Source: Chrysophaeum taylorii
Taxonomy: Eukaryota > Sar > Pelagophyceae > Pelagomonadales > Pelagomonadaceae
DNA: 64,000 nt
Assembly: GCA_029834535.1 (NCBI GenBank)
Contig: JAQMWT010000454.1
Location: 1-64,000, forward strand
Reading direction: 5' to 3'
Shown: positions 24,605 to 64,000 of the stretch, in pieces
How positions within the stretch are numbered: the stretch's first letter is position 1
Layout of the letters: the number at the start of each line of letters is the position of its first letter
Notes under the pieces: model-generated
Databases searched by the model: none
The model's input: only the letters and a program-made list of their open reading frames with translations
Told to the model about the DNA's origin: nothing
Translations under genes and position numbers: made by a program

Positions 24605-27600
24605 ATGCAGAGCAACCAAGTTGATAACCAGCCCTCTGCAACTGCTGAAGAAGAAGGCACCGCGAAGGAGCGACCTGCGTATTTCAATAAGTACGACGTT
24701 CCGTGGGCGGACGCGCCTCACGACGAACATGGTCAACCTTTGCCAGTGATGCCTCCTCATTTAGCGGATCAGGAGAGCATGCAGGTCATCCCTCCGACCG
24801 TCGCGCAGGTCGAAGAGGTGATGGCTGAATTGGGTATTACAGAGCATCCTGCTTTGGATGATGACGAGAAGCTGATGATGAAGCATCTAATCTCGTATTC
24901 GTGGGCATTTTTCGATGATGTGATGAGACCTGTTGATTTACCTGAAGTGACGCTCCAAAGGCTCAAAGAAGAGAACCCGACTCCCGTCAAACTCTCGCCA
25001 TATCGGTTGTCGAAAGAAAAGATTGAATGCTTGCGGATGCAGATTGAAGAATGGACCCGAGACGGAGCTATTATTCGTCCCGCGAATTCTCCATGGGGTT
25101 TCCCTATTTTGATGTTGCCTAAGAAAGGTGCTGAGCCTGGCACTTCCAATGCTTACAGGGCAGCTGTCGACTACGGCGCCTCAATGCAGTATTGCTCAAG
25201 CATGGAAGCCGGCCGAGTGTGAGCATGGCTGACGCGTTGATTTTTTTTCTCATCGACAAGGTCTGTCGTTCCAGTTTGGATATTCGTTGGGGCTATCTCA
25301 ATTTACGATTGTCGCTAGATGCACAAGATGTGGTAACCTTCACTAGTCCTCTGGGAGCGTACAGCTACATGCGTCTACCTTTGGGAGTCAAACCAGCCGG
25401 AAGTTTGTGTTGCAAGCAGTTGACCACTGACTTGTCGAAGTGGCTATATCGTGATCTCGTGGCATATATCGATGATATTCTCGCCGGTCACGCGGATACA
25501 AAGAATCATATATCGATGATATTCTCGCCGGTCACGCGGATACAAAGAATCACTTGCAGTGCCTTGTGCAAGTTGTTTTCCCCATCTCGCCTTGAAAGGG
25601 TACAGCGCCAAGATCAAGAAGATCCATTTTATGCAAGAAGTCATTGAGTTTTTGGGGTCATTTATCCACCGCGAACGGACTTCTTCCATCACCGAGGTCT
25701 TTAGAAGCCATTAGACACATGCCAATCCCTGGCACTTTGTCGGATGCTGACCCTAAGAAGCAAGTACGGTCTTTTCTTGGAATGGGGAGTTTTTGCCGGC
25801 GTTATGCAAGGAATTTTGCGAAGGTTGCAGAGCCATTAAGACAACCGACGTTGCCGGACGTAAAATTCGAGTGGACGAAAGAGTGTCAGGAAGCTCGGGA
25901 TGCCATCATCGAGGCTATTGTCACTTCGAAGGGTGTCTACCATCCTGACTACTCGTTGCCTTTCTGCATTCGAACTGATGATGCTTCCGCGCATGGGTTG
26001 GGAGGAGCTTACCTATTTCAAAAAGTACCAGTCGCTGACGACGATGGAAGAGAAAGCATAGAAGAGAGAGTTATTGAGTACTGGAGTCGAACCGTGCCTT
26101 AGTCGATGAGGAAGTATGATCCTCGGCTCTTAGAACTCCTCGCAGTACTCTCCGCTCTTGAGAATTTCCGATTTTATATCGAAGGTCATCATCAGACGAA
26201 ATTAGAGACGGATCATCGTAATCTAACGTTTCTTCGGGATTCGAATCATACGTCTGGACAGTTAGCGCGATCGGCTATGCGGCTTGCTGCGTTCGACCGG
26301 GAGCTCGGATACAAGCCTGGAAATTCCCCTGGCACGCGTATCCCGGATTGTCTGTCGCGCAACCCTATCGACAAGTTGATCGAGAAAGACGAAGACAGGG
26401 AACCGATCAATGAAGCTTATGTGATCTTCCAAGAAATCCCCACCGATGTACCTGACACAGCCTGTTTTACCTTCTCTTCGGTGACGATGCCTATACGGAC
26501 GGACAGCGGACCCACCGCAGCTATGGCAGCAGTTAGTACGCGACAGAACGTACAACCGCCTCAATTCTCGTACGAGTCTGAGCCAGTTGACTCCGTCGAA
26601 CGTCTTCCTTTTGCGGATCAAGCGGAGGATGAGATCACTCTCGATGAGATAGCGAAAGAACAGGCTGAAGATGCCACATGCAAGCGAATCAAACGAAATC
26701 TCGATTCTGAGCAGAAAGATCAAGACGAGCAGTCATCCGTACCGTATGAAGTTGATAACAACGTGTTGTATAAGGTCGATGATTCGGATTCGCAACGTCT
26801 TCTTGTGGTCCCTCAGTCTATGCGAAAGCGTGTAATCGCCATGCATCACCGAGGATTATTCGGAGGCCATGGAGGACGAGACTCCACAGCGAATCAAATC
26901 TAAGAACGGTATTGGTGGCCAAACGTCTCATCGTCAGTTAATAATGAGTTCGTCAATGCCTGTATTGTTTGCCAGAAGATTCGATCCGCCATGCCTAGTC
27001 GTCATGGCTTGCTCTGTCAACCGAATCGCGTCGGAGATTGCTATGTCCTAGGTATGGATCTGATTGGACCTCTGCGAGGCGCTGACCTGTACACGCACAT
27101 ACTCGCGATGTACGATGCAACGTCGCATTTCTTGAAATTGGCTCTGATCAACACCAAGCATGATTATTCAATTTTGAAAACGCGTTTGTGGACAAGATTT
27201 TACTTGAGGGATGTCGTCTCCCACGGTGCATAGTCACGGATAATGGAAATGAGTTCGCGAAGAGGTTATTTCGCACGTTTGTTCGTCAATTCAACGCAAG
27301 TTATCGTACTACTACCCTTCCATATCACCCTCAGAGTAACCACACTGAACGTGTCAACCGATTTATCAAAGCCTTCTTGCGAGCTGCGATCGATGAACAG
27401 CGTCAGCCAGATTGGTCGAATTTCATCCCATACGTGGCATTCATGTACAATAGGATGTACATTCCGAGAACGAAGATTTTACCTTTCATGATGCGTACTG
27501 GCAAGCAACCCATGTTACCACCCGATTGCAATCTTTTGAGTGAAGAGCGTGATCTATACCGCAATCACGTCATCAGATTTTGATGGACTTTAAGAACAAG

Positions 27601-39402: not shown

Positions 39403-40870
39403 TCACGAGGTGAGGTAACGAGCACGAAGCCGGAGGAAGGGAGGAGCTTCCGTACCACGGGTGAAAATATCGCTAAGGTTGTCAAGGCGGGGTATGTGTT
39501 GGAGATCAATGATTTGGTTGCGGTGATATTCGGCGGTGCTGTAAAAGCGAATATCAATATGACGGGTGCGCCGCGTGAGACATTGGAGACGGACTTGGGT
39601 GACGGTGGTTCTGTTATCGACATACATTGGTACCGTGTGACGAGGGAGATCAAAGTCATCAAAAAGTTTGAGAAGCCAAGAGAGCTCAGCAGTAGCGGCG
39701 TAAAGAGCGAGCAATTCAGCTTCAAAAGAGGAGCGGGCGAGGAGGTGCTGCGAGCGTGAGCAGTAGGCTATCATAGAGCCAGCAAGGAGAAAACAAAGCC
39801 CAGTAGTGGAGTGGCGGTCATCAGGGTCGTCGGCCCAGCTGGAGTCGGAATAACCACAGAGACGAAGGGTAGAATCGCGACCAAGAACAAGGGCAAGATC
39901 GTGAGAACCATTGAGGTAACGAAGAGTGTGGGATAAAGCGTGCCAGTGGGGTTTACCAGGATCGTGTGAAAAACGCGCACACTGGTTGACGGACCAAGTG
40001 ATATCAGGACGAGTCATGACGGAAACAAACAAGACACAGCCAACAATACGACGAAAAGGGATGCGTGCCATGAAGACGCGAGCAGGGGAGCCAGGTGCAG
40101 GAGAAGCAGCCGCAGAAAGAGGAAGGACTTTGGGAGCGGGAGTCAAGTCTGGTTTGCTGTGGATGAAGCGATGGTCGGATGAAGCGATGGTCGGGGAGGA
40201 TTTCACGGATAGCATGGGATTGGTCGATAGCGAGCGTGCGACGTGCGCGATCACGCGTAATGCGAAGACCAACGTAAGTGGTGAGATCAAGCTCGTTGAC
40301 GTCAGTGAAGGTTCGGAAACGTAGGAAGAAGGCTTGGTAATGGCCAAGGCAATGACGAGGGTGCGCCACAAGAAGATCATCAACGACAAGAACGAGACGT
40401 AGAACAACGATAGAATTAAGCACGAGCTTGTAAATGCAAGTGTCACCAGATCCGCGGACGAAGCCACAATCATTGACAAGGAAGCGTTCCAAATAAAGCC
40501 ACCAATTACGACAAGCTTGTTTGCAACCATACCAAGAGCGACGGAGCTTGTAAACGATCTTGGAACCATCGGTGGATTGACGAGGAGCATAGCCTTCGGG
40601 TGGCCAGACATAGATGTCTTCGTCAATGGGAGCTTGGATAAAAGCGGAGCTGACATCCAACTTGTGCAAATCCCAGTCATGAACAGCAACAAAAGTTAGA
40701 AAGAAACGGATGGTGACGATGTTGGCAACTGGGGAATAGGTGTCGTGATAATCAATGCCGTAAACCTGGGTGTAACCGCGGACAACGAGGCGAGCCTTGT
40801 ACGATTTGAAGCGGCCAGATTCATACTTCTTGCGGAGGATCCACTTGAGGGTACAGATGTTACCAGAAAA
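39403..40870 (-). pseudogene. Copia reverse transcriptase-RNase H
   Basis: The RT frame begins LKWILRKKYESGRFKSYKAR, LVVRGYTQVYGIDYHDTYSP, HKLDVSSAFIQAPIDEDIYV, KLRRSWYGCKQACRNWW and the active site LVLVVDDLLVAHP (V-V-D-D where copia usually has Y-V-D-D). After a 16-bp tandem duplication at about 40164-40195 the frame changes to PDITWSVNQCARFSHDPG, GYSDSSWADDPDDRHSTTG, SFEAELLALYAATAE and YVDNRTTVTQV, ending FLRLRARYLTS and a stop at 39403. All RNase H acidic residues seem present. Confidence 0.9.
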
Positions 40871-42627
40871 GTCGAAGGAACGCGAACAGCATCCCAGCAA
40901 CCAAGCTGACCGAGGGAATGATATTCTTTGGCGATGGCGTGCAACCAGCCAGGACGCTCAGGATTTGTCTGAGCTAAAGCTTCGCATAAATGGGTGGAAG
41001 TGATAGCCCCATCGTAAATGTATGAATACTGAGAGGTTTCTTCAGAAGCAGAGTAATGAACATGGACAGCATGGGGATCAACAATGGTATGAGCTAGACA
41101 AAGGGGAAGGAACACATAATGAACTAACAAACGAAAGCTAGAATAAGAGACATACAGAGAGTGACAGGAGGAAACAGAATCGACATTATGACAGGAGGAA
41201 ACAGAATCGACATTACGTTGGGGACAAACAGAATTGACGTTGCGTAGTGGACAAAAGCTAGAACGAAAGTTCGATGGTTTGTTTGAGTTAGTTGGTAATG
41301 CGCTTTGGTCGACTTTGCGCGGTCGGCCCCGTTTGGCTCGACGTAATGGTGTACTTTTCGTATTGCCCGTTGACGGTTGTGGTATTGTTTCTGGGGTGAT
41401 CAGTCCCGATAAGGCCGGCTCCTGAGCATCAAAAACAGAAGACAAGGGAGCAACAGCGGAAGACAAACGAGGGTCATAATAAAATAAGTCAGGGAAACGA
41501 GAACCCACGAGAGGAGGAGGAAGGGGTTGGGAGGACAGAGACTTACGCGTGGCAAAATTTTCGTCAAAAACAACGTCAATAGATGTATGGATGACGGGAC
41601 CAGTGGTGCGTTGAAGCAATATACGATAGCCAGGTCCGGCAGAGGGATACCCAATGAAGATACCGGTTATAGCTTTGGTAGGCCATTTGTCGCCAGTAAG
41701 AATAGCAGCAGGACAGCCCCAAACACGAAGAAAATCGACACGGGGCAGAGCCTCGTGTAGCATTTCATATGGCGTCATGTAACCAGGGTTAGAGGCGTTT
41801 GGCATGCGCTCGGAGATGAAGTCAGCCGTTTCCATGGCCCAACGCCAAAAATCAGGTGGACGGTGCGCATGCACCAAAAGAGTGCGAGTAATATCAGCAG
41901 TTGCGCGATGAGAGCGTTCCACAACACCAGAAAAAGCGTGCGCCTGTGAAGTTTTGGACTGAGCAGCAGGAGCCCGTTTGAGGGCGATGTTGTTGCCCAG
42001 ACAGAAGGTTTCGAATTGGCCCATAAGAGAGCGGTCACGATCGGTGTAGATGAGGGCGATGCGATATCCAAATGAGCGAAATACGGTAGGCAGAAAAAGT
42101 TCGAGTTGACGAGCGTTCGTAAGTGCATCGTGGCGGGGGGCGAAGTAACGTGTGCGGCGGCGCGTATGATCATCAACAAACGTAAGGATGGCGCGGTCTT
42201 GGTAGATGAAAGAAGGAATACCTGTAAACATGAGATCTGCGTGGATAATAAGATAAGGAGCAACGGCACGTGGACGGGACAAAGGCTCGGTGGCAGGAAC
42301 AGAGGTGGAAATGGAGGCATGTGCTTTACGTTGGCCAACGTGCGCAGCATGCATTTTACCTAGAGCACAAGCAGGACAAAAAGAAAGAGACGCGGAGCTG
42401 GGGAAAAGCGGTGCGCCAACAGCGAGAGAAGACAAACGTCGGATATAAGAGGGACTATAGTGACCAAGACGAGCATGCCAAAGGTCGAAGGTAAGTTGGG
42501 TGCGTTGAGACACAACGGGAAACGCACAAGGGTCATGTACGCGAGGGCAAGAAGAAAATGCCACAAACGGAGAAACGAAGTCCGCTTTGGGCGCAGCGGT
42601 CGTATTGCCGATCCAACAAACGATCAA
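40860..42627 (-). pseudogene. Copia integrase
   Basis: Open for ~590 residues. The N-terminal HHCC-like zinc region is LWHARLGHYSPSYIRRLSSL with CPACALGKMHAAH. The core includes LIIHADLMFTGIP (first catalytic Asp), ALIYTDRDRSLMGQFETF (second Asp), and SGVVERSHRATADITRTLL (Glu). Then FLRVWGCPAAILTGDKWPTK, GIFIGYPSAGPGYRILL and DVVFDENFATRKSL, the usual copia C-terminal part, and a low-complexity linker with a repeated NVDSVSSCH. The catalytic residues appear preserved. The frame is lost at about 40870, just before RT. Confidence 0.88.
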
Positions 42628-45627: not shown

Positions 45628-45830
45628 CACTTTCCACCCAGGTTCGCGCAGGCAGCGATGCGCTCTGCGCATGCCCTAGACGAGGAGGTGCGTAGTAGTA
45701 GTTAGTTCCTCTACTGGGTGGTTGGTTGTCGAGAAAGAAAGAGCATAACACGACGTTTTTTAGTAGTAGTTGCAGAATAAATAAATAAATAAATAGGTCG
45801 TTGAAAAAGAATTTGAAATTACGAAATAAG

Positions 45831-46985
45831 ATGAAAGATTATTATTTGCGAACCGGACAGCAGGTCGACGCGAATCGATGGGTCGTGCGCGCTTGCGGCG
45901 CCGGGTACGAAGTAATGAGGCTCCCGGGGGGGCACCGCGAATTTCTAACCTTCGACACGTCGCGCGCGGATATTCTGTTGCGCGCTGGACGCCATCCAAA
46001 CATTTGCGGCCTTCGCGCTGTGGTCCGCGTCGATGGCGTGCCGTGTCTCATCACAGACTTTCCCGAACCCCGCGAGCCCCGCGAGGTCGCGGCGGGGCTC
46101 GCGCATCTCTTCGACCGCGGAATTTTCCCAACGGCGCAGTCGCGACTGCGGCGCGTCGTTGTTCTCGACGTCGTTCCGGAAGAAGAGTCGCGGCGCCGGT
46201 GGGATGCGATGGGCGTTGCGCCGACGATGATTCCGTCAAAAGCCGAGCCCTGGGACGAGGCCGTGTTTAAGGGGAACGTCGGGGTCGTGCTGCGGCGCGA
46301 GGATCTTGTTCGCGAAAGTTTAGAATTGGGGGCCGACCGCGCGATCGGATTGAACAACCTCGCGACGATATTGGAAGGCCGCGGTCAGTTAAGGGAAGCG
46401 AAGGAACTGTACGAGGAGGCGATCGGAATCCGCCCGCACCCGGAATTTGTTCGGAACTTGACTTGTCTTTTGAACGGTATGTCTTTATTGCAGAGCGCGA
46501 AAGGAGAATACGAAAGTGCTCTTCTCCTCCGCCGTAAGTGCCTCGATCTCGAGCGCCGGCACGGACTACCCGTTGGCGCGTCCCTGAACAATCTGGGTCT
46601 CCTTTTTGCGGCGCAGGGTCGCTTCGAAGAAGCGATTCCATTTTGTCGCGAAGCGATGGCAGAAAACCCGAAAATGGAATCCAGAATCGAAACGACGGCG
46701 TCGCTTCTCCTCCACCTCGGTCGCGCTAAAGAGGCTTTCGACCTCCGACCCTCCCTTCACCCCGAAGCCCTCGGTGCGGCGTTGGCGGAGGAGGGCGACT
46801 ACGAAAAAGCGGCAGACGTCTATACGAATGCGTTACGCGAAAATGAAAGTCCGAGACTCCTCCACGCCCTCGCCCTCCTCTTCAGACGCGCGGGCCGGGA
46901 CGACGACGCGAGACCCCTCCTCGAGCGCGCCCTCGAAATCAAGAGATCCCCCATCGTCACCCCCGATCACACTCCCTCCAAGTAG
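45831..46985 (+). CDS. TPR-repeat protein with a novel N-terminal domain
   Basis: 384 residues from the first ATG (45831); the upstream in-frame codons start with TTG and are probably not used. Residues ~10-165 form a globular domain (VVRACGAGYEVMRLPGGH, LLRAGRHPNICGLRAVVRVD, VAAGLAHLFDRGIFPTAQS) with faint likeness to a protein-kinase N-lobe, but no HRD or DFG is present; this likeness is only suggestive. Residues ~170-375 are TPR-like helix pairs: IGLNNLATILEGRGQLREAK, YESALLLRRKCLDLERRHG, SLNNLGLLFAAQGRFEEAIP, EALGAALAEEGDYEKAADVY and LHALALLFRRAGRDDDARPL. TPRs bind peptides. Degraded copies lie at 56490 and 62030, each tail to tail with a NACHT-WD40 gene, hinting at a functional or evolutionary link. 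Confidence 0.82.
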   Translation: MKDYYLRTGQQVDANRWVVRACGAGYEVMRLPGGHREFLTFDTSRADILLRAGRHPNICGLRAVVRVDGVPCLITDFPEPREPREVAAGLAHLFDRGIFPTAQSRLRRVVVLDVVPEEESRRRWDAMGVAPTMIPSKAEPWDEAVFKGNVGVVLRREDLVRESLELGADRAIGLNNLATILEGRGQLREAKELYEEAIGIRPHPEFVRNLTCLLNGMSLLQSAKGEYESALLLRRKCLDLERRHGLPVGASLNNLGLLFAAQGRFEEAIPFCREAMAENPKMESRIETTASLLLHLGRAKEAFDLRPSLHPEALGAALAEEGDYEKAADVYTNALRENESPRLLHALALLFRRAGRDDDARPLLERALEIKRSPIVTPDHTPSK

Positions 46986-56983: not shown

Positions 56984-59900
56984 TCAGAACCGCACGTCCC
57001 AGTACGTGATCGTGCCGTTCAGGTGGCCAAACGCGCAGACCATATCATCATTCTGGTCGTCGCCGCCTGTCGCCGTCATCTCAAACACGGTCATGCATCG
57101 CACTGTGCTCTCCATGGGAAGCACGAACAGCGCTATTTTGCCAGCGATCGCTGGGTCCCAGACGCGAACCGTCTTGTCGTCGGAGGAGCTCGCCAACCGC
57201 GGGGTCTTGTTGGTCGGATCGAAGGCCACCACGCACCGCACCCGAGCCTGATGGCCTTGGAGTTTGTGGAGTTGGCGGGCTGTGGTCAGGTCCCAGACGC
57301 GGACCGTTTTGTCGTCGGAACAGCTCGCGAGGCACAGAGTGTCGTTCATCTTGAACGCCACTACACCATTCACCGTATCCTCGTGGCCCTCGAGAACGTA
57401 TAGTTGGTGGCCTGTGGTCGGGTCCCAAACACGTACCGTCGTATCCTTGGAACAGGTTGCGAGGCGCACCTCGTCATTCATCTCGAATGCCACGACGCCA
57501 ATTACCGCATCCCGGTGGCCCTCCAATGTGTTGATTTCACGGCCCTCGGTGAGGTCCCACACGCGTAACGTCTTATCGCCAGAACAGCTCGCGAGCCTTA
57601 CCTCTTCGTTCATCTTCAAGACCGTCACGCCATTTACCGAACTCCGGTGGCCCTCGAGCTCGTGGAGTTCGCGGCCTGAGGTCGGGTCCCACACGCGCAC
57701 CGTACAGTCGATGGAGCAGCTCGCAAGGCATATGGCATCGTTCAATTTGAATACCACGACGCCATAAACCTTATCCTCATGGCCCTCGAGTTTCTGGAGT
57801 TCGGAGCGAGAGCTCGGATCCCAGACGCGCACCGTCCCGTCCTCAGAGCAGCTCGCCAACCGCGGCTCGCCATCCCGAGTCATGCTGAAAGCCGCCAGAC
57901 CACGCACTTTTTTTTTGTGGGTCTCGAGCTCAGACGTTCTACCGCTCGCGATCGGGTCCCAGATACGCACCGTCCCGTCGGCTGAGCAGCTCGCAAGCCG
58001 CAGCACGCCTTCGCTCAGCTCGAACGCCACCAGGCCATAAACCAAACCATCGTGGCCCTCGAGTTTGTTGAGTTGCTGGCCTTCGATCGGGTTCCAGATC
58101 CGCACCGTCTTGTTGATAGACCCACTCGCCAGTAACCACGTGCCCTCGCTCGTCGAGAACGCCGCCAAGGACAGTACCGAATCCCGGTGGCCCTCGAGTT
58201 TGTGGAGTTCGCAGCGGTCGATCGGGTTCCATATGCGCACCGTTTTGTCAAAGGAGCCGCTCGCCAGCCGCGGGCCATCGCTCGCCCCAAATGCCACCAC
58301 GCTGTTCACCGGATACTGGTGACCTTCGAGTCTAAGGAGTTGGCGTTCCTCGATCGGGTTCCAGACGCGCACTGTGGTGTCACCGGAGCAGCTCGCGAGG
58401 CACATGGCGTTGTTCATCTTGAACGCCACTACACCATTCACCCACTTCTGGTGGCCCTTGAGTTTGTGGAGTTCGCGGCCTGTCATCGGGTCCCACACGC
58501 GCACCGTCTTATCATGAGAGCAGCTCGCGAGGCACGTGGCGTTGTTCATCTCGAACGCCGTCACGCCGACCACCCTATCCTCGTGTCCCACTATTTTTCG
58601 GATTTGGACTCCTGCATTCGGGTCCCAGACGCGCAGTGACTTGTCGGCAGAACAGCTCGCCAACAGTTGCGTGCCGTCGCTCGTCTTAAACGCGACCACA
58701 CCAAGCACGTGATGCTGGTGCCCCTCGAGTTTCAAGAGCTCACGGCCCGCCATTGGGTCCCACACACGCACTGTGTGGTCAAAAGAGCAGCTCGCCACTC
58801 GCGTTTCGCCATCGCTCTTCTTAAAAGCCGTCACACCCTTCACACCACCCTCATGGCCCTCGAGAACGCACTGGAGTGGCGCATTGGCAGGCGTGAGGCT
58901 CGCGTGGCGTGCCGTGATTATTCGCATTCCCCGAGCCATCCGCCGCGCGTCTCGTGCCAATCGAGAAACCGACATCATATGCCATTTCTTGGCAGGTTCC
59001 AGCAAGCGCTGCCAGAGCTCTTCTGCGAGGACCTCGAACCCCCAAACCCCCACGTGATTTTGCGAAAGGACCAGAGCCCGACGCAGGAGCGTCGCCTCCG
59101 CCCCCGGAACTTTGGTCGTGTCGGCGATGAGTTCGGCCATCTGGCCCGCCCCAACTCGCAAAGTCACGAAGCGCAGCGAGCACAGCAGCGCCAGTGCGAC
59201 GTCTTGCTGCTTCGCCGCGACGAGATGCGTGATCGCCCATGGCAAAGCATAATCATCCGGAGCCAAGAGGTCGCGCTCGTCGTCACCCGCACCGCTCCAC
59301 TCCTCGCGAATCACCGCCGCCGCGTGAACGTCGCTCTCGTTAACGTTCCTCCGAACATCGGGTTCACGAAGGAGCGCGGCGACGCACGCGGCCGCGGCAC
59401 GGCGGTGCACAGCGACGCGGTCGATGAAGTACGGATCCTCGTCACTGCGGTCTTCGTATGGGAACTCACCCATTAGCCAGTCAGGGATGGACTTGTGAAA
59501 GCTGTAGACGCACCCGTCGTCGCCGACGGGAAAGAGCTGCGATAGCAACCCAACGATATCCTTGCACCTGGGAACGCCGCTCAAACCCGGCAGGGTGTTT
59601 GCCGTGTGCGGCGGCACAGGAGCAGCGAGGATGGCTTCGAGGACTTTCCGGCAGTCGATGGAAAACCCACCGGGGAAGACGCGAGTAAATTGGGCGAGGT
59701 ACGCGCCGGCGAGACCGTCGGGGAGTGCCTCGATATTAGCATGGGGCTGATCTTCTTCGAGCCGTTTTCGGAGCCAGTAGAGATACAAGAAGACACCCTG
59801 TGCCTTTGCGGCAGCGGTGGTGATGGTGGCTTCGAGGTGCTCGGGCTCGACAACGGGAGCGAGGATGGCTCGGAGAAACTTGTGGACGTCATTGGCACAC

Positions 59901-61135
59901 TCCTCGGCGTTCTCCTCAGAATCGAGGACTTTAGGTCGAAGCGTGGATAACTTGGTTCGCGCTTTGAGCTCTCGTCTAGAGGTAACGAGCACCGCGATCC
60001 GGGTTGGGAGCTTGGGGAATTCGCGCGCAACGAGATCGAGGAGGTCGTTCTTGGTCGCGTGCTCGGCCTCGTCGAGGGCGTCTATCACGATGAGAAGGCG
60101 ACCTTCCTCGGGAAGTTCGATGCTGGCGAGCGGCTCGAGGATCAGGCAGTCGAACAGCTGCGCGATATCGTTCAGGTCGCAACTTCCGGCCGCGAGAATC
60201 TCCTCGACTAGTTGCCGGTACTCCGGCAGCGCTCGAGCGATTTGGTACGAGAACGACTTGATCATGCGGCACGGGTCTCGCTTGGCGGCGTTGTTGTGTT
60301 GGACCAGGTGGACAGCGATTAGAATGTCGTTTTCAAGCAGCGCACACAGTTTGGCGACTATGGCCGTCTTGCCAAAGCCCGGCCCGGCGAACAACACGCA
60401 GCATCGCGGGCCGTCGGTGTTGCGAACCCAAGAAATGAGGAAATCGAGAATCCAGTCGCGCGTGCCAGGGACGAATTGCTCGACGTGCCACTTGAGTTCG
60501 CGTTCGAACGGGAGAGGGTGCAGCTCCGACTCGAGCGACGGAGGGACGACGGGGACTTGCTTGGGGTAGTAGTTGCGTCGGAACACTTCGAGTTTCGCGT
60601 CCGGTGCTACCGGGTTCGCTCGCGTGCCGCAGATGTCCTCCGAGGCCTTGATTGAGACGCAGGTCGCGTTGACGGCGATAGCCGATGCCGCTGTGGTGCG
60701 CGCGCCCGTGCCGTACGGCGATGTAAGGTCGCGATTCAAAAACCCCCCGCAGCAGACCTGGCCCGAGGCTCCGTCGACGACAATCGCGTTGTCGTGGGTG
60801 CAGAGGGTTTGCAACGCCCGTTTTTCGGCGTCGTTCTCGCAACACTTTTGGATGAGAATCGGGTCGCCTCCGCGGCTCGGGTCGCCTCCGCGGCGGTCGA
60901 GGTCCTTGGGGAACTTACCGTATTTCGAACAGACTTTTAACTTGGGCTGTGCGAACGGTAGTTCGGGATCTGGATCGAGGAGCTCTTTCGAGTCTCCGAT
61001 GATGAACAAAAGGCCGTGCGCAGGCTGCTTCTCGCCGGTGCCCTCGGTCGCGATCATGCGCGCGGCCTTGAGGGTCGCGGCGACGACCTCCTCGCGGATG
61101 TTTGCGGTCATCTTCCCGTCGCCCTGCGGCAACAT
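56984..61135 (-). CDS. DisA_N-like/NACHT/WD40 STAND protein
   Basis: One intact frame of 1383 residues. Residues ~10-187 resemble the DisA_N diadenylate cyclase fold: AATLKAARMIATEGTGEK and HGLLFIIGDS, then HDNAIVVDGASGQVCCGGFL (position of the DGA motif is D115-N-A), GTGARTTAASAIAVNATCVS (position of the RHR motif is R146-T-T) and KLEVFR. Residues ~245-450 are a NACHT ATPase: P-loop GPGFGKT (251-257), Walker B LLIVIDALDEAE (347-358) and VLVTSRRE. ~450-750 is helical (winged-helix/arm part of STAND proteins). 756-1383 holds 14 WD40 repeats, each LEGH...VxGVxAF...LASCSxDxTVRVWDP, enough for two 7-blade propellers. By family, such proteins oligomerise on ligand binding and signal through the N-terminal domain. 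Here that domain would make or sense a cyclic nucleotide; both motifs are altered, so sensing is as likely as synthesis. Function is inference. Confidence 0.88.
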   Translation of the reverse strand: MLPQGDGKMTANIREEVVAATLKAARMIATEGTGEKQPAHGLLFIIGDSKELLDPDPELPFAQPKLKVCSKYGKFPKDLDRRGGDPSRGGDPILIQKCCENDAEKRALQTLCTHDNAIVVDGASGQVCCGGFLNRDLTSPYGTGARTTAASAIAVNATCVSIKASEDICGTRANPVAPDAKLEVFRRNYYPKQVPVVPPSLESELHPLPFERELKWHVEQFVPGTRDWILDFLISWVRNTDGPRCCVLFAGPGFGKTAIVAKLCALLENDILIAVHLVQHNNAAKRDPCRMIKSFSYQIARALPEYRQLVEEILAAGSCDLNDIAQLFDCLILEPLASIELPEEGRLLIVIDALDEAEHATKNDLLDLVAREFPKLPTRIAVLVTSRRELKARTKLSTLRPKVLDSEENAEECANDVHKFLRAILAPVVEPEHLEATITTAAAKAQGVFLYLYWLRKRLEEDQPHANIEALPDGLAGAYLAQFTRVFPGGFSIDCRKVLEAILAAPVPPHTANTLPGLSGVPRCKDIVGLLSQLFPVGDDGCVYSFHKSIPDWLMGEFPYEDRSDEDPYFIDRVAVHRRAAAACVAALLREPDVRRNVNESDVHAAAVIREEWSGAGDDERDLLAPDDYALPWAITHLVAAKQQDVALALLCSLRFVTLRVGAGQMAELIADTTKVPGAEATLLRRALVLSQNHVGVWGFEVLAEELWQRLLEPAKKWHMMSVSRLARDARRMARGMRIITARHASLTPANAPLQCVLEGHEGGVKGVTAFKKSDGETRVASCSFDHTVRVWDPMAGRELLKLEGHQHHVLGVVAFKTSDGTQLLASCSADKSLRVWDPNAGVQIRKIVGHEDRVVGVTAFEMNNATCLASCSHDKTVRVWDPMTGRELHKLKGHQKWVNGVVAFKMNNAMCLASCSGDTTVRVWNPIEERQLLRLEGHQYPVNSVVAFGASDGPRLASGSFDKTVRIWNPIDRCELHKLEGHRDSVLSLAAFSTSEGTWLLASGSINKTVRIWNPIEGQQLNKLEGHDGLVYGLVAFELSEGVLRLASCSADGTVRIWDPIASGRTSELETHKKKVRGLAAFSMTRDGEPRLASCSEDGTVRVWDPSSRSELQKLEGHEDKVYGVVVFKLNDAICLASCSIDCTVRVWDPTSGRELHELEGHRSSVNGVTVLKMNEEVRLASCSGDKTLRVWDLTEGREINTLEGHRDAVIGVVAFEMNDEVRLATCSKDTTVRVWDPTTGHQLYVLEGHEDTVNGVVAFKMNDTLCLASCSDDKTVRVWDLTTARQLHKLQGHQARVRCVVAFDPTNKTPRLASSSDDKTVRVWDPAIAGKIALFVLPMESTVRCMTVFEMTATGGDDQNDDMVCAFGHLNGTITYWDVRF

Positions 61136-62630: not shown

Positions 62631-64000
62631 TCAGAACCGCACGTCCCAATACGTGATCGTGCCGTTATGGTGGCCAAAAGCACAGACTATATCTTTCTGG
62701 TCGTCGCCGCCTGTCGCCTTCATCTCGAACACTGTCATGCTCTTCACTATTTTCTCCATAGAAAGCACGAACAGCGCTGCGCCAGCGATTGGGTCCCAGA
62801 GGCGAACCGTCACGTCGTAGGAGGAGCTCGCCAGCCGCGGGGTCTTGTTGGTCGCTGCTAAGGCCCCCACACTACACACCCAACTCTGGTGGCCCTCGAG
62901 TTTGAGGAGTTGGCGGGCTGTTGTCATGTCCCAGACGCGCACCGTTTTGTCGAAGGAGCAACTCGCGAGGCGCACGACGTCGTTCATCTCGAACGCCACC
63001 ACGCCAAACACGAAATGCTCGTGATCATCGAGAGTGTGGAGTTGGCGGCCTGTGGTCGGGTCCCAAACGCGTACCGTCTTATCATCGGAGCAGCTCGCAA
63101 GGCGCACCTCGTCATTCATCTCGAAAGCCACAACGCCACGTACCCAAGCCTGGTGGCCCTCAACTTTGAGGAGTTCGCAGCCCTCGGTGAGGTCCCACAC
63201 GCGTAACGTCTTATCGTAAGAACAGCTCGCTAGTCTTACCTCTTCGTTCATCTTGAAGACCGTCACGCCATCTACCGGACCCGAATGGCCCTCGAGCTTG
63301 TGGAGTTCGCGGCCTGAGGTTGGGTCCCACACGCGCACTGTCCCGTCGTAGGAGCAGCTCGCTAGGCATATGGCATCGTTCAATTTGAATGCCACGACGC
63401 CACAAACCGGATCCCGATGGCCCTCGAGTTTCTGGAGTTCGGAGCGAGAGCTCGGATCCCAGACGCGCACCGTCCTGTCCAGAGAGCAGCTCGCCAACCG
63501 CGGCTCGTCATCCCTCGTGCTGAAAGCTGCCAGACCATACACTTCGTTTTCGTGGGTCTCGAGCTCAGACGTTCTACCGCTCGCGATCGGGTCCCAGATA
63601 CGCACCGTCCCGTCCAATGAGCAGCTCGCCAGCCGCAGCACGCCTTCGCTCAGTTCAAACGCCACCAGGCCACAAACCGAACCATCGTGGCCCTCGAGTT
63701 TGTTGAGTTCCTGGCCTTCGAAGGGGTTCCAGATCCGTACCGTCCATTCGTAAGAGCCAATCGCCAGCAACCACGTGCCGTCGCTCGTCGCGAATGCCGC
63801 TACACACATTCCCGGACTCAAACCGCAATCGATTTCGTGAACTTGGCATGCGTCGATTGGGTTCCAAATGCGCACCATTCCGAGCTCAGAGCCGCTCGCC
63901 AGCCTTGGGCCATCGCTCGCCTCGAATGCAACCACGCTTTTCACCGAATTCTGATGGCCTTCCAGTGTACAGAGCTGGCAGACCTCGATCGGGTTCCAGA
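62631..64000 (-). CDS. Second NACHT-WD40 paralogue, 3' part
   Basis: The minus-strand frame is open from the window edge to a stop at 62631. It holds about 10 WD40 repeats corresponding to repeats 5-14 of the neighbouring protein, plus the end of repeat 4 (WNPIE-VCQL). It ends with the same GTITYWDVRF. One repeat (CQVHEIDCGLSPGMCVAAF) has lost the LEGH start, so that blade is degenerate. Differences from the neighbour concentrate in the three residues after LEGH (for example QNSV, DGSV, RDPV, SGPV, QAWV, QSWV). The upstream DisA_N-like and NACHT parts, if present, lie beyond the window. Confidence 0.85.
   Translation of the reverse strand, partial: WNPIEVCQLCTLEGHQNSVKSVVAFEASDGPRLASGSELGMVRIWNPIDACQVHEIDCGLSPGMCVAAFATSDGTWLLAIGSYEWTVRIWNPFEGQELNKLEGHDGSVCGLVAFELSEGVLRLASCSLDGTVRIWDPIASGRTSELETHENEVYGLAAFSTRDDEPRLASCSLDRTVRVWDPSSRSELQKLEGHRDPVCGVVAFKLNDAICLASCSYDGTVRVWDPTSGRELHKLEGHSGPVDGVTVFKMNEEVRLASCSYDKTLRVWDLTEGCELLKVEGHQAWVRGVVAFEMNDEVRLASCSDDKTVRVWDPTTGRQLHTLDDHEHFVFGVVAFEMNDVVRLASCSFDKTVRVWDMTTARQLLKLEGHQSWVCSVGALAATNKTPRLASSSYDVTVRLWDPIAGAALFVLSMEKIVKSMTVFEMKATGGDDQKDIVCAFGHHNGTITYWDVRF

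Follow-up and report, generated by a model that had tools for sequence, protein, structure and literature searches.

A predicted diadenylate cyclase fold ahead of NACHT and WD40 modules in an NLR-type gene family of the alga Chrysophaeum taylorii

A gene in which a diadenylate cyclase-like (DAC, DisA_N) domain, a NACHT module and an array of WD40 repeats are joined in one eukaryotic polypeptide raises the question of what such a protein may recognize and what kind of output it may deliver. The gene lies in a stretch of 64,000 nucleotides, here called the window (C454:1-64000), of the genome assembly of the pelagophyte alga Chrysophaeum taylorii (70.8 Mb, 697 contigs), in whose lineage, to our knowledge, nucleotide-binding oligomerization domain (NOD)-like receptors (NLRs) have been little studied. 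The favoured answer, on which we are evenly poised, is that of an NLR-type intracellular receptor of the STAND class (signal transduction ATPases with numerous domains) with a nucleotide-linked output delivered by a DAC-fold domain. Its two parts differ in strength: that the protein is a receptor of the NLR type is very probable, while the nucleotide-linked output of the DAC-fold domain is proposed tentatively, being ranked first with a role as adaptor second.

The gene is a frame of 1383 residues, open without interruption on the minus strand, in which the start codon is probably that of Met9 (61109-61111); the protein database contains a 1375-residue protein of the same contig, which matches residues 1-200 of the window protein at 100% identity over 96% of their length. 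The original prediction, made from the sequence alone, had described an intact frame of this length with a given order of motifs, and translation bears it out, each motif looked up being found once and in that order (LLFIIGD at residues 42-48, DNAIVVDG at 115-122, GARTTAAS at 144-151, LEVFR at 182-186 and, in the NTPase, GPGFGKT at 251-257 and LLIVIDALDEAE at 347-358). The NACHT module and the 14 WD40 units that it had also named are found as well: NPHP3_N (PF24883), a model of NACHT-type NTPases, matches residues 224-387 with 79.7 bits (cut-off 24.8) in a Pfam scan, and 13 WD40 stretches by Pfam, or 13 repeats by anchored alignment, are followed by a degenerate last unit. The domain matches found genome-wide, a ratio of nonsynonymous to synonymous divergence (dN/dS) of 0.43 in the N-terminal domain when the window gene is compared with C454b, its tandem copy, and the presence of the protein in the database place the gene beyond chance. 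The features are as follows.

56984..61135, minus strand: whole gene, 1383-residue frame (frame translation; database protein of 1375 residues)
60542..61093, minus strand: N-terminal domain with predicted DAC fold, residues 15-198
60770..60793, minus strand: DGA-equivalent motif, DNAIVVDG (alignments)
60683..60706, minus strand: RHR-equivalent motif, GARTTAAS, with RTT in place of RHR (alignments)
60626..60646, minus strand: SEETG-equivalent stretch, ASEDICG, residues 164-170 (alignments)
59975..60466, minus strand: NACHT module (NPHP3_N), residues 224-387 (PF24883, 79.7 bits)
60365-60385, minus strand: Walker A, GPGFGKT (motif position)
60062-60097, minus strand: Walker B, LLIVIDALDEAE (motif position)
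57155..58885, minus strand: 13 WD40 repeats, residues 751-1327; the fast-evolving positions lie on either side of V in GHxxxVx and of D in SxDxT (Pfam, alignment)
56987..57154, minus strand: degenerate 14th WD40 unit, residues 1328-1383 (read by eye)
62631..64000, minus strand: WD40 end of the tandem paralogue C454b, which extends beyond the window end (C454:62634-66815, a 1394-residue frame with DAC-like, NACHT and WD40 parts)

Modelling supports a DAC fold for the N-terminal domain. Its predicted structure, compared with PDB chains that were ranked by Foldseek and then re-aligned, matches the DisA_N/DAC fold, with 4yxm (DisA D75N with bound c-di-AMP) among the matches, and the domain of the paralogue C418, modelled likewise, gives the same result; structure prediction had been set as the test on which a DisA_N-like N-terminus should stand or fall, and it came out in favour. 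The accompanying check by profile is divided, in that C418 passes the Pfam gathering cut-off of 27 bits for PF02457 (30.2 bits in the protein scan, 31.0 in the genome scan), whereas the window copy, at 14.6 bits, does not. When the family alignment of 14 rows (13 genomic, one transcript) is set against 39 bacterial DACs, the profile-profile score is 30.9 (P 3.5e-4), with the DGA and RHR motifs in register, and none of 200 column shuffles reaches it. A PDB sequence search with C418 places the DAC chain 7l8n on top (E 0.018); with the family profile it gives seven matches, none of them significant, of which 7l8n is the first (E 0.18) and DisA the fourth (E 0.54), with ribosomal S12 between them; with the window domain alone the sole match is a nanobody (E 1.4). 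For that domain alone Pfam lists just DAC and Rieske at E<=10, and NCBIfam gives DacZ 14.7 bits (cut-off 430).

Several of these results weigh against the assignment. The PF02457 cut-off is passed by only one of eight paralogous proteins scanned, three others scoring 12.8-15.2 bits and four having no DAC match in their Pfam lists; the hhalign probability of the family-versus-DAC match is just 37%; and, once C418 and P0002 are left out, the profile score drops to 23.2, about that of the best shuffle (23.1), so that the sequence evidence leans on an intermediate paralogue. The Rieske match, although weak (12.0 bits, cut-off 20.3), is a rival one, and it is echoed in NCBIfam by a Rieske-type ferredoxin subunit (13.7 bits, cut-off 150). 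The evidence for the fold itself comes from a model.

Whether such a domain could still be an enzyme depends on the motifs that DAC enzymes bear, DGA and RHR (PMC5575661, in excerpt). In the family alignment the window copy reads DNA in place of DGA and RTT in place of RHR; DGA is complete in four of the 14 rows and RHR in one, that of C418, which keeps both motifs, so that among the genomic rows DGA is lost in 10/13 and RHR in 12/13. The bacterial enzyme CdaS no longer synthesised c-di-AMP once either motif had been changed to AAA, and the protein with both motifs destroyed still produced AMP and no c-di-AMP (PMC4568413, in excerpt). The view that the window protein is a canonical c-di-AMP synthase is accordingly held unlikely, and with it the part of the original prediction by which the domain makes c-di-AMP is weakened. 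At the same time none of the 14 rows departs from Gly144, Arg146, Ser151 or Ser165, which lie in the RHR- and SEETG-equivalent motifs, or from Cys129, Cys159 and Cys169, possibly a metal site or a disulphide. Loss of DGA and RHR together with these invariant residues indicates that the family has departed from canonical catalysis, yet retains residues of the motif region and has conserved others of its own; the loss across rows also fits a dead scaffold, which counts against a nucleotide-linked output. As a separate observation, a perfect 18-bp tandem duplication within the DAC-like domain (window 60859-60894) adjoins a six-residue insert absent from every other family row that covers the place.

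At the other end of the protein, the WD40 propeller evolves, as its substitution pattern indicates, like a recognition surface. When the 13 repeats are aligned, the scaffold is conserved and variation is high at the bracketed places of GH[xxx]V[x] and S[x]D[x]T. In the NWD genes of the fungus Podospora, codons 7, 9, 25 and 27, which flank the conserved codons 8 and 26, are described as strongly diversifying and as mapping to the interaction face of the propeller (PMC1805685, in excerpt); the mapping of these codons onto the C. taylorii repeat was made here, by motif. The variable positions were picked from variation within the gene before genes were compared. Between the window gene and C454b the four corresponding columns differ in amino acid in 12, 11, 13 and 8 of the 13 repeats, and the six columns first picked hold 58 differences from C454b and 62 from C396, numbers that none of 100,000 random six-column sets reaches. 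Against C454b, the four positions have a dN of 0.867 and the rest of the propeller a dS of 0.214, a ratio of 4.06 (95% bootstrap over repeats 2.84-6.25), with a dN/dS of 0.45 (0.36-0.58) at the remaining propeller positions; against C396 the same four-position ratio is 3.65 (1.92-8.43). Both pairs tested on the four positions (C454b and C396) thus bear the mark of diversifying selection. The one contrary value, a dN/dS of 0.56 at the six positions against C165a, is uninformative, the propellers being only 42% identical and dS saturated. In the one gene pair compared, 12 of the 13 repeats are closest to the repeat at the same position in C454b (repeat 12 is the exception), so that no general exchange of repeats is seen and the repeats are taken as positional orthologues.

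The slot ahead of the NACHT module is itself variable. Three related NACHT genes (C28, the second gene on C359, and C44), whose NACHT modules are 41-44% identical to that of the window, were examined for their N-termini, the relation claimed being that of the NACHT module and not of WD40 content. In C28 (C28:9103-10842), PNP_UDP_1 (34.5 bits, cut-off 25.1) precedes NACHT in one 1855-residue frame, and the other two have an MLKL_N-like N-terminal region (24.1 and 22.3 bits, below the cut-off of 27). Related NOD modules therefore carry differing N-terminal domains: DAC-like, PNP_UDP_1 and, below cut-off, MLKL_N-like. Fungal NLRs exchange their N-termini in a combinatorial manner, PNP_UDP, HeLo-like and RelA_SpoT domains filling the slot (PMC4986451, in excerpt). 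Long frames with PNP_UDP_1 occur on C324 and C398 as well.

The DAC-like domain, in turn, is found in more than one context. It gives 20 genome matches at E<=1e-3, at about 17 loci on 12 contigs, some partial or broken, and a stretch of about 33 kb of contig C454 contains four of the loci. It stands before NACHT-WD40 in the window gene, C454b, C165a, C396 and C599; before leucine-rich repeats (LRRs) in P0005, where the repeats are visible in the sequence and the Pfam accessions are those of LRR families; with short tails in C677a, C677b and C418; and, in one frame of C309, together with an MLKL_N-like region (26.0 bits, cut-off 27), ankyrin repeats and a protein kinase (L011:4866-9998; the frame is open for 3406 residues, the domains coming from the first 1711). 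A copy with DAC-like and NACHT parts at C528:41969-44907 occupies several frames, contains stops and an insert, and is either a pseudogene or an intron-containing gene; C553:121817-121951 gives a weak DAC match (15.5 bits, under the cut-off). A conserved region of about 330 residues follows the DAC-like domain in C454c, C454d, C309 and C575; scanned separately, its C454c and C454d copies match no family above cut-off and may represent a degenerate CHAT-like domain.

Taken together, these features outline how the receptor may work. The WD40 part, whose 14 units would form two seven-bladed propellers with a diversifying contact face, would bind a ligand that is most likely a protein, after which the NACHT module would exchange its nucleotide and oligomerise, bringing the N-terminal DAC-fold domains face to face. 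Since bacterial DAC domains need DAC-DAC contact for c-di-AMP production (PMC5575661, in excerpt), induced proximity is a plausible on-switch. The output, in what may be an immune role, would be tied to adenine nucleotides by way of binding or altered processing (e.g. ATP/ADP breakdown) rather than canonical c-di-AMP synthesis. The receptor logic put forward in the original prediction, of a propeller that senses and a nucleotide-linked effector that responds, is in this respect retained in part: NACHT with WD40, the differing N-termini on the three related NACHT genes and the selection on the propeller speak for it, while the case for c-di-AMP synthesis is weakened.

The reading that comes nearest to this one, itself doubtful, is that the DAC-fold domain has lost its enzyme function and self-associates like TIR or CARD, so that activated receptors recruit other DAC-fold proteins, e.g. 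C309, a candidate downstream partner, which executes the response. Such a homotypic adaptor fits the sharing of the DAC-like domain by receptors and non-NACHT proteins, the loss of RHR and DGA in most genomic rows and the contact between bacterial DAC domains (PMC5575661). The domain tree, too, does not follow the architectures: the NACHT label needs three changes, of which the starred branches force at least two, but the tree is poorly resolved (three of its 11 inner branches have good support), and the labels need as few changes in 85 of 500 shuffles. Against the adaptor, the invariant Gly144, Arg146 and Ser165 suggest that a ligand is still bound, and an enzyme-type N-terminus (PNP_UDP) occupies the same slot in a related gene.

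Less probable, and on balance unlikely, is a nucleotide sensor, in which the DAC-fold domain would bind c-di-AMP or another nucleotide from associated bacteria and gate the NACHT module, giving two inputs and no enzymatic output. DisA D75N was crystallised with c-di-AMP (4yxm), so that binding can survive a change in DGA; colonies sit in mucilage, with Bacteroidetes among the dominant bacteria (PMC10366177, in excerpt), and a co-assembled Bacteroidota contig encodes a CdaA-type cyclase. The RHR motif is altered, however, and the N-terminal slot of NLRs is usually that of the output, the three related NACHT genes bearing output-type domains there.

A true diadenylate cyclase effector, by which the oligomerised receptor would raise an alarm in the form of c-di-AMP or a similar cyclic dinucleotide, is highly improbable: it could appeal to the predicted fold and to C418, which by its intact DGA and RHR might be an active form, but the window copy reads DNA and RTT, and AAA in either motif was enough to abolish synthesis by CdaS (PMC4568413). 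Families of STING gave no match in the genome, and, because no control genome gave one either, this absence is uninformative.

Artefact or bacterial contamination is scarcely credible, since, although the assembly does hold bacterial sequence, the matches lie on 12 contigs, some with kinase, ankyrin, LRR or WD40 parts, no relative was confirmed by two short patterns in 84,980 prokaryotic species genomes, and retroelement domains occur in the same window. The bacterial sequence in question, C301:23500-23850 on a 31-kb contig, is the strongest DAC match of the genome (133.2 bits, CdaA-type), is 97% identical to a Cytophagaceae metagenome-assembled genome, adjoins a frame that we take to be folP-like, and was excluded as a contaminant. 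In the published C. taylorii genome, 71 Mbp of core algal contigs are accompanied by a microbiome of 13 or more bacterial species (PMC10366177, in excerpt). Elsewhere in the window are retroelement frames with gag_pre-integrase and retroviral SH3-like domains (40699-42627, minus strand), another with an RNase H-like domain (26106-26900, plus strand), and a 394-residue frame with a tetratricopeptide-repeat array (45801-46982).

Relatives outside this genome were sought with two short peptide patterns from the family alignment, which confirmed none in prokaryotic genome contigs (14 matches failed tblastn) or viral contigs (21 failed). The protein collection, where searches need shared five-residue words and distant relatives could escape, gave six full-length proteins among 916 candidates, the four named ones being from C. 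taylorii and two lying on the window's contig; two proteins, P0001 and a 101-residue MMETSP transcript, from 5525 candidates at E<=0.01; and, with P0001 as query, nothing beyond P0001 among 615 candidates. The original prediction knew of no described eukaryotic system of such composition, and this agrees with the open-licence literature, in which titles and abstract starts, among the matches listed, mention no DAC or DisA with NACHT or NLR or in eukaryotes; a search for DACNV, a name of DAC-related sensor families, found nothing related. DisA, DAC, cyclase and c-di-AMP are absent as whole words from the main text of a survey of fungal effectors (PMC9815663), as are NACHT, NLR and immune from the consulted text of the C. 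taylorii genome paper (PMC10366177), and DisA, diadenylate and c-di-AMP from that of a paper on eukaryotic CD-NTases and STING (PMC10732462).

The kind of receptor is thus known, while its output fold is, as far as found, unreported. APAF-1, whose N-terminal domain is a CARD, differs in having an AP-ATPase and that CARD where the window protein has NACHT and a predicted DAC fold. It is likewise a STAND ATPase, whose C-terminal WD40 part senses a ligand and triggers assembly (PMC7159879, in excerpt), as is proposed here. The NWD/HNWD proteins of Podospora anserina (HET-E, HET-D, HET-R) share NACHT and WD40, an N-terminal domain that varies between genes, and, on either side of two conserved repeat residues, paired positions under diversifying selection (PMC1805685); they differ in being fungal, in the general exchange of repeats, as opposed to the positional orthology seen here in one gene pair, and in the HET domain of HNWD, in whose place the window protein has a domain that models as a DAC fold and for which Pfam lists just DAC and Rieske. 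By analogy, a close conceptual precedent is the fungal RelA_SpoT-NACHT-WD40 architecture, which, like fungal PNP_UDP-NACHT, sets a nucleotide-enzyme domain before NACHT (PMC4986451); the latter arrangement recurs in C28, and the window domain differs in its predicted DAC fold, as opposed to a (p)ppGpp synthetase or nucleosidase. With the bacterial and archaeal diadenylate cyclases (DisA, CdaA, CdaS; PF02457) it shares the predicted fold and the register of DGA and RHR, differing from them in the alteration of both motifs, the fusion to NACHT-WD40, the eukaryotic host and the three invariant cysteines.

It is possible, if rather speculative, that the receptor family acquired its effector from bacteria, in the form of a diadenylate cyclase domain, and that its oligomers form DAC-fold dimers which alter adenine nucleotides. 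If so, the product would be a new dinucleotide signal or a depletion of ATP/ADP, with the motif-complete C418 as active partner, and the system would parallel bacterial nucleotide-signal defence within one polypeptide and would be, to the extent that literature search and knowledge reach, the first use of the DAC fold in a eukaryote. More generally, a fold described from bacteria and archaea (PMC5575661, in excerpt) is now met, as modelled, in the output slot of a stramenopile NLR-type family, and the selection signature of fungal allorecognition propellers is seen at equivalent repeat positions in an alga. This raises the questions of whether the domain binds or processes adenine nucleotides, and of whether the propellers are polymorphic between strains of this colony-forming, bloom-forming alga.

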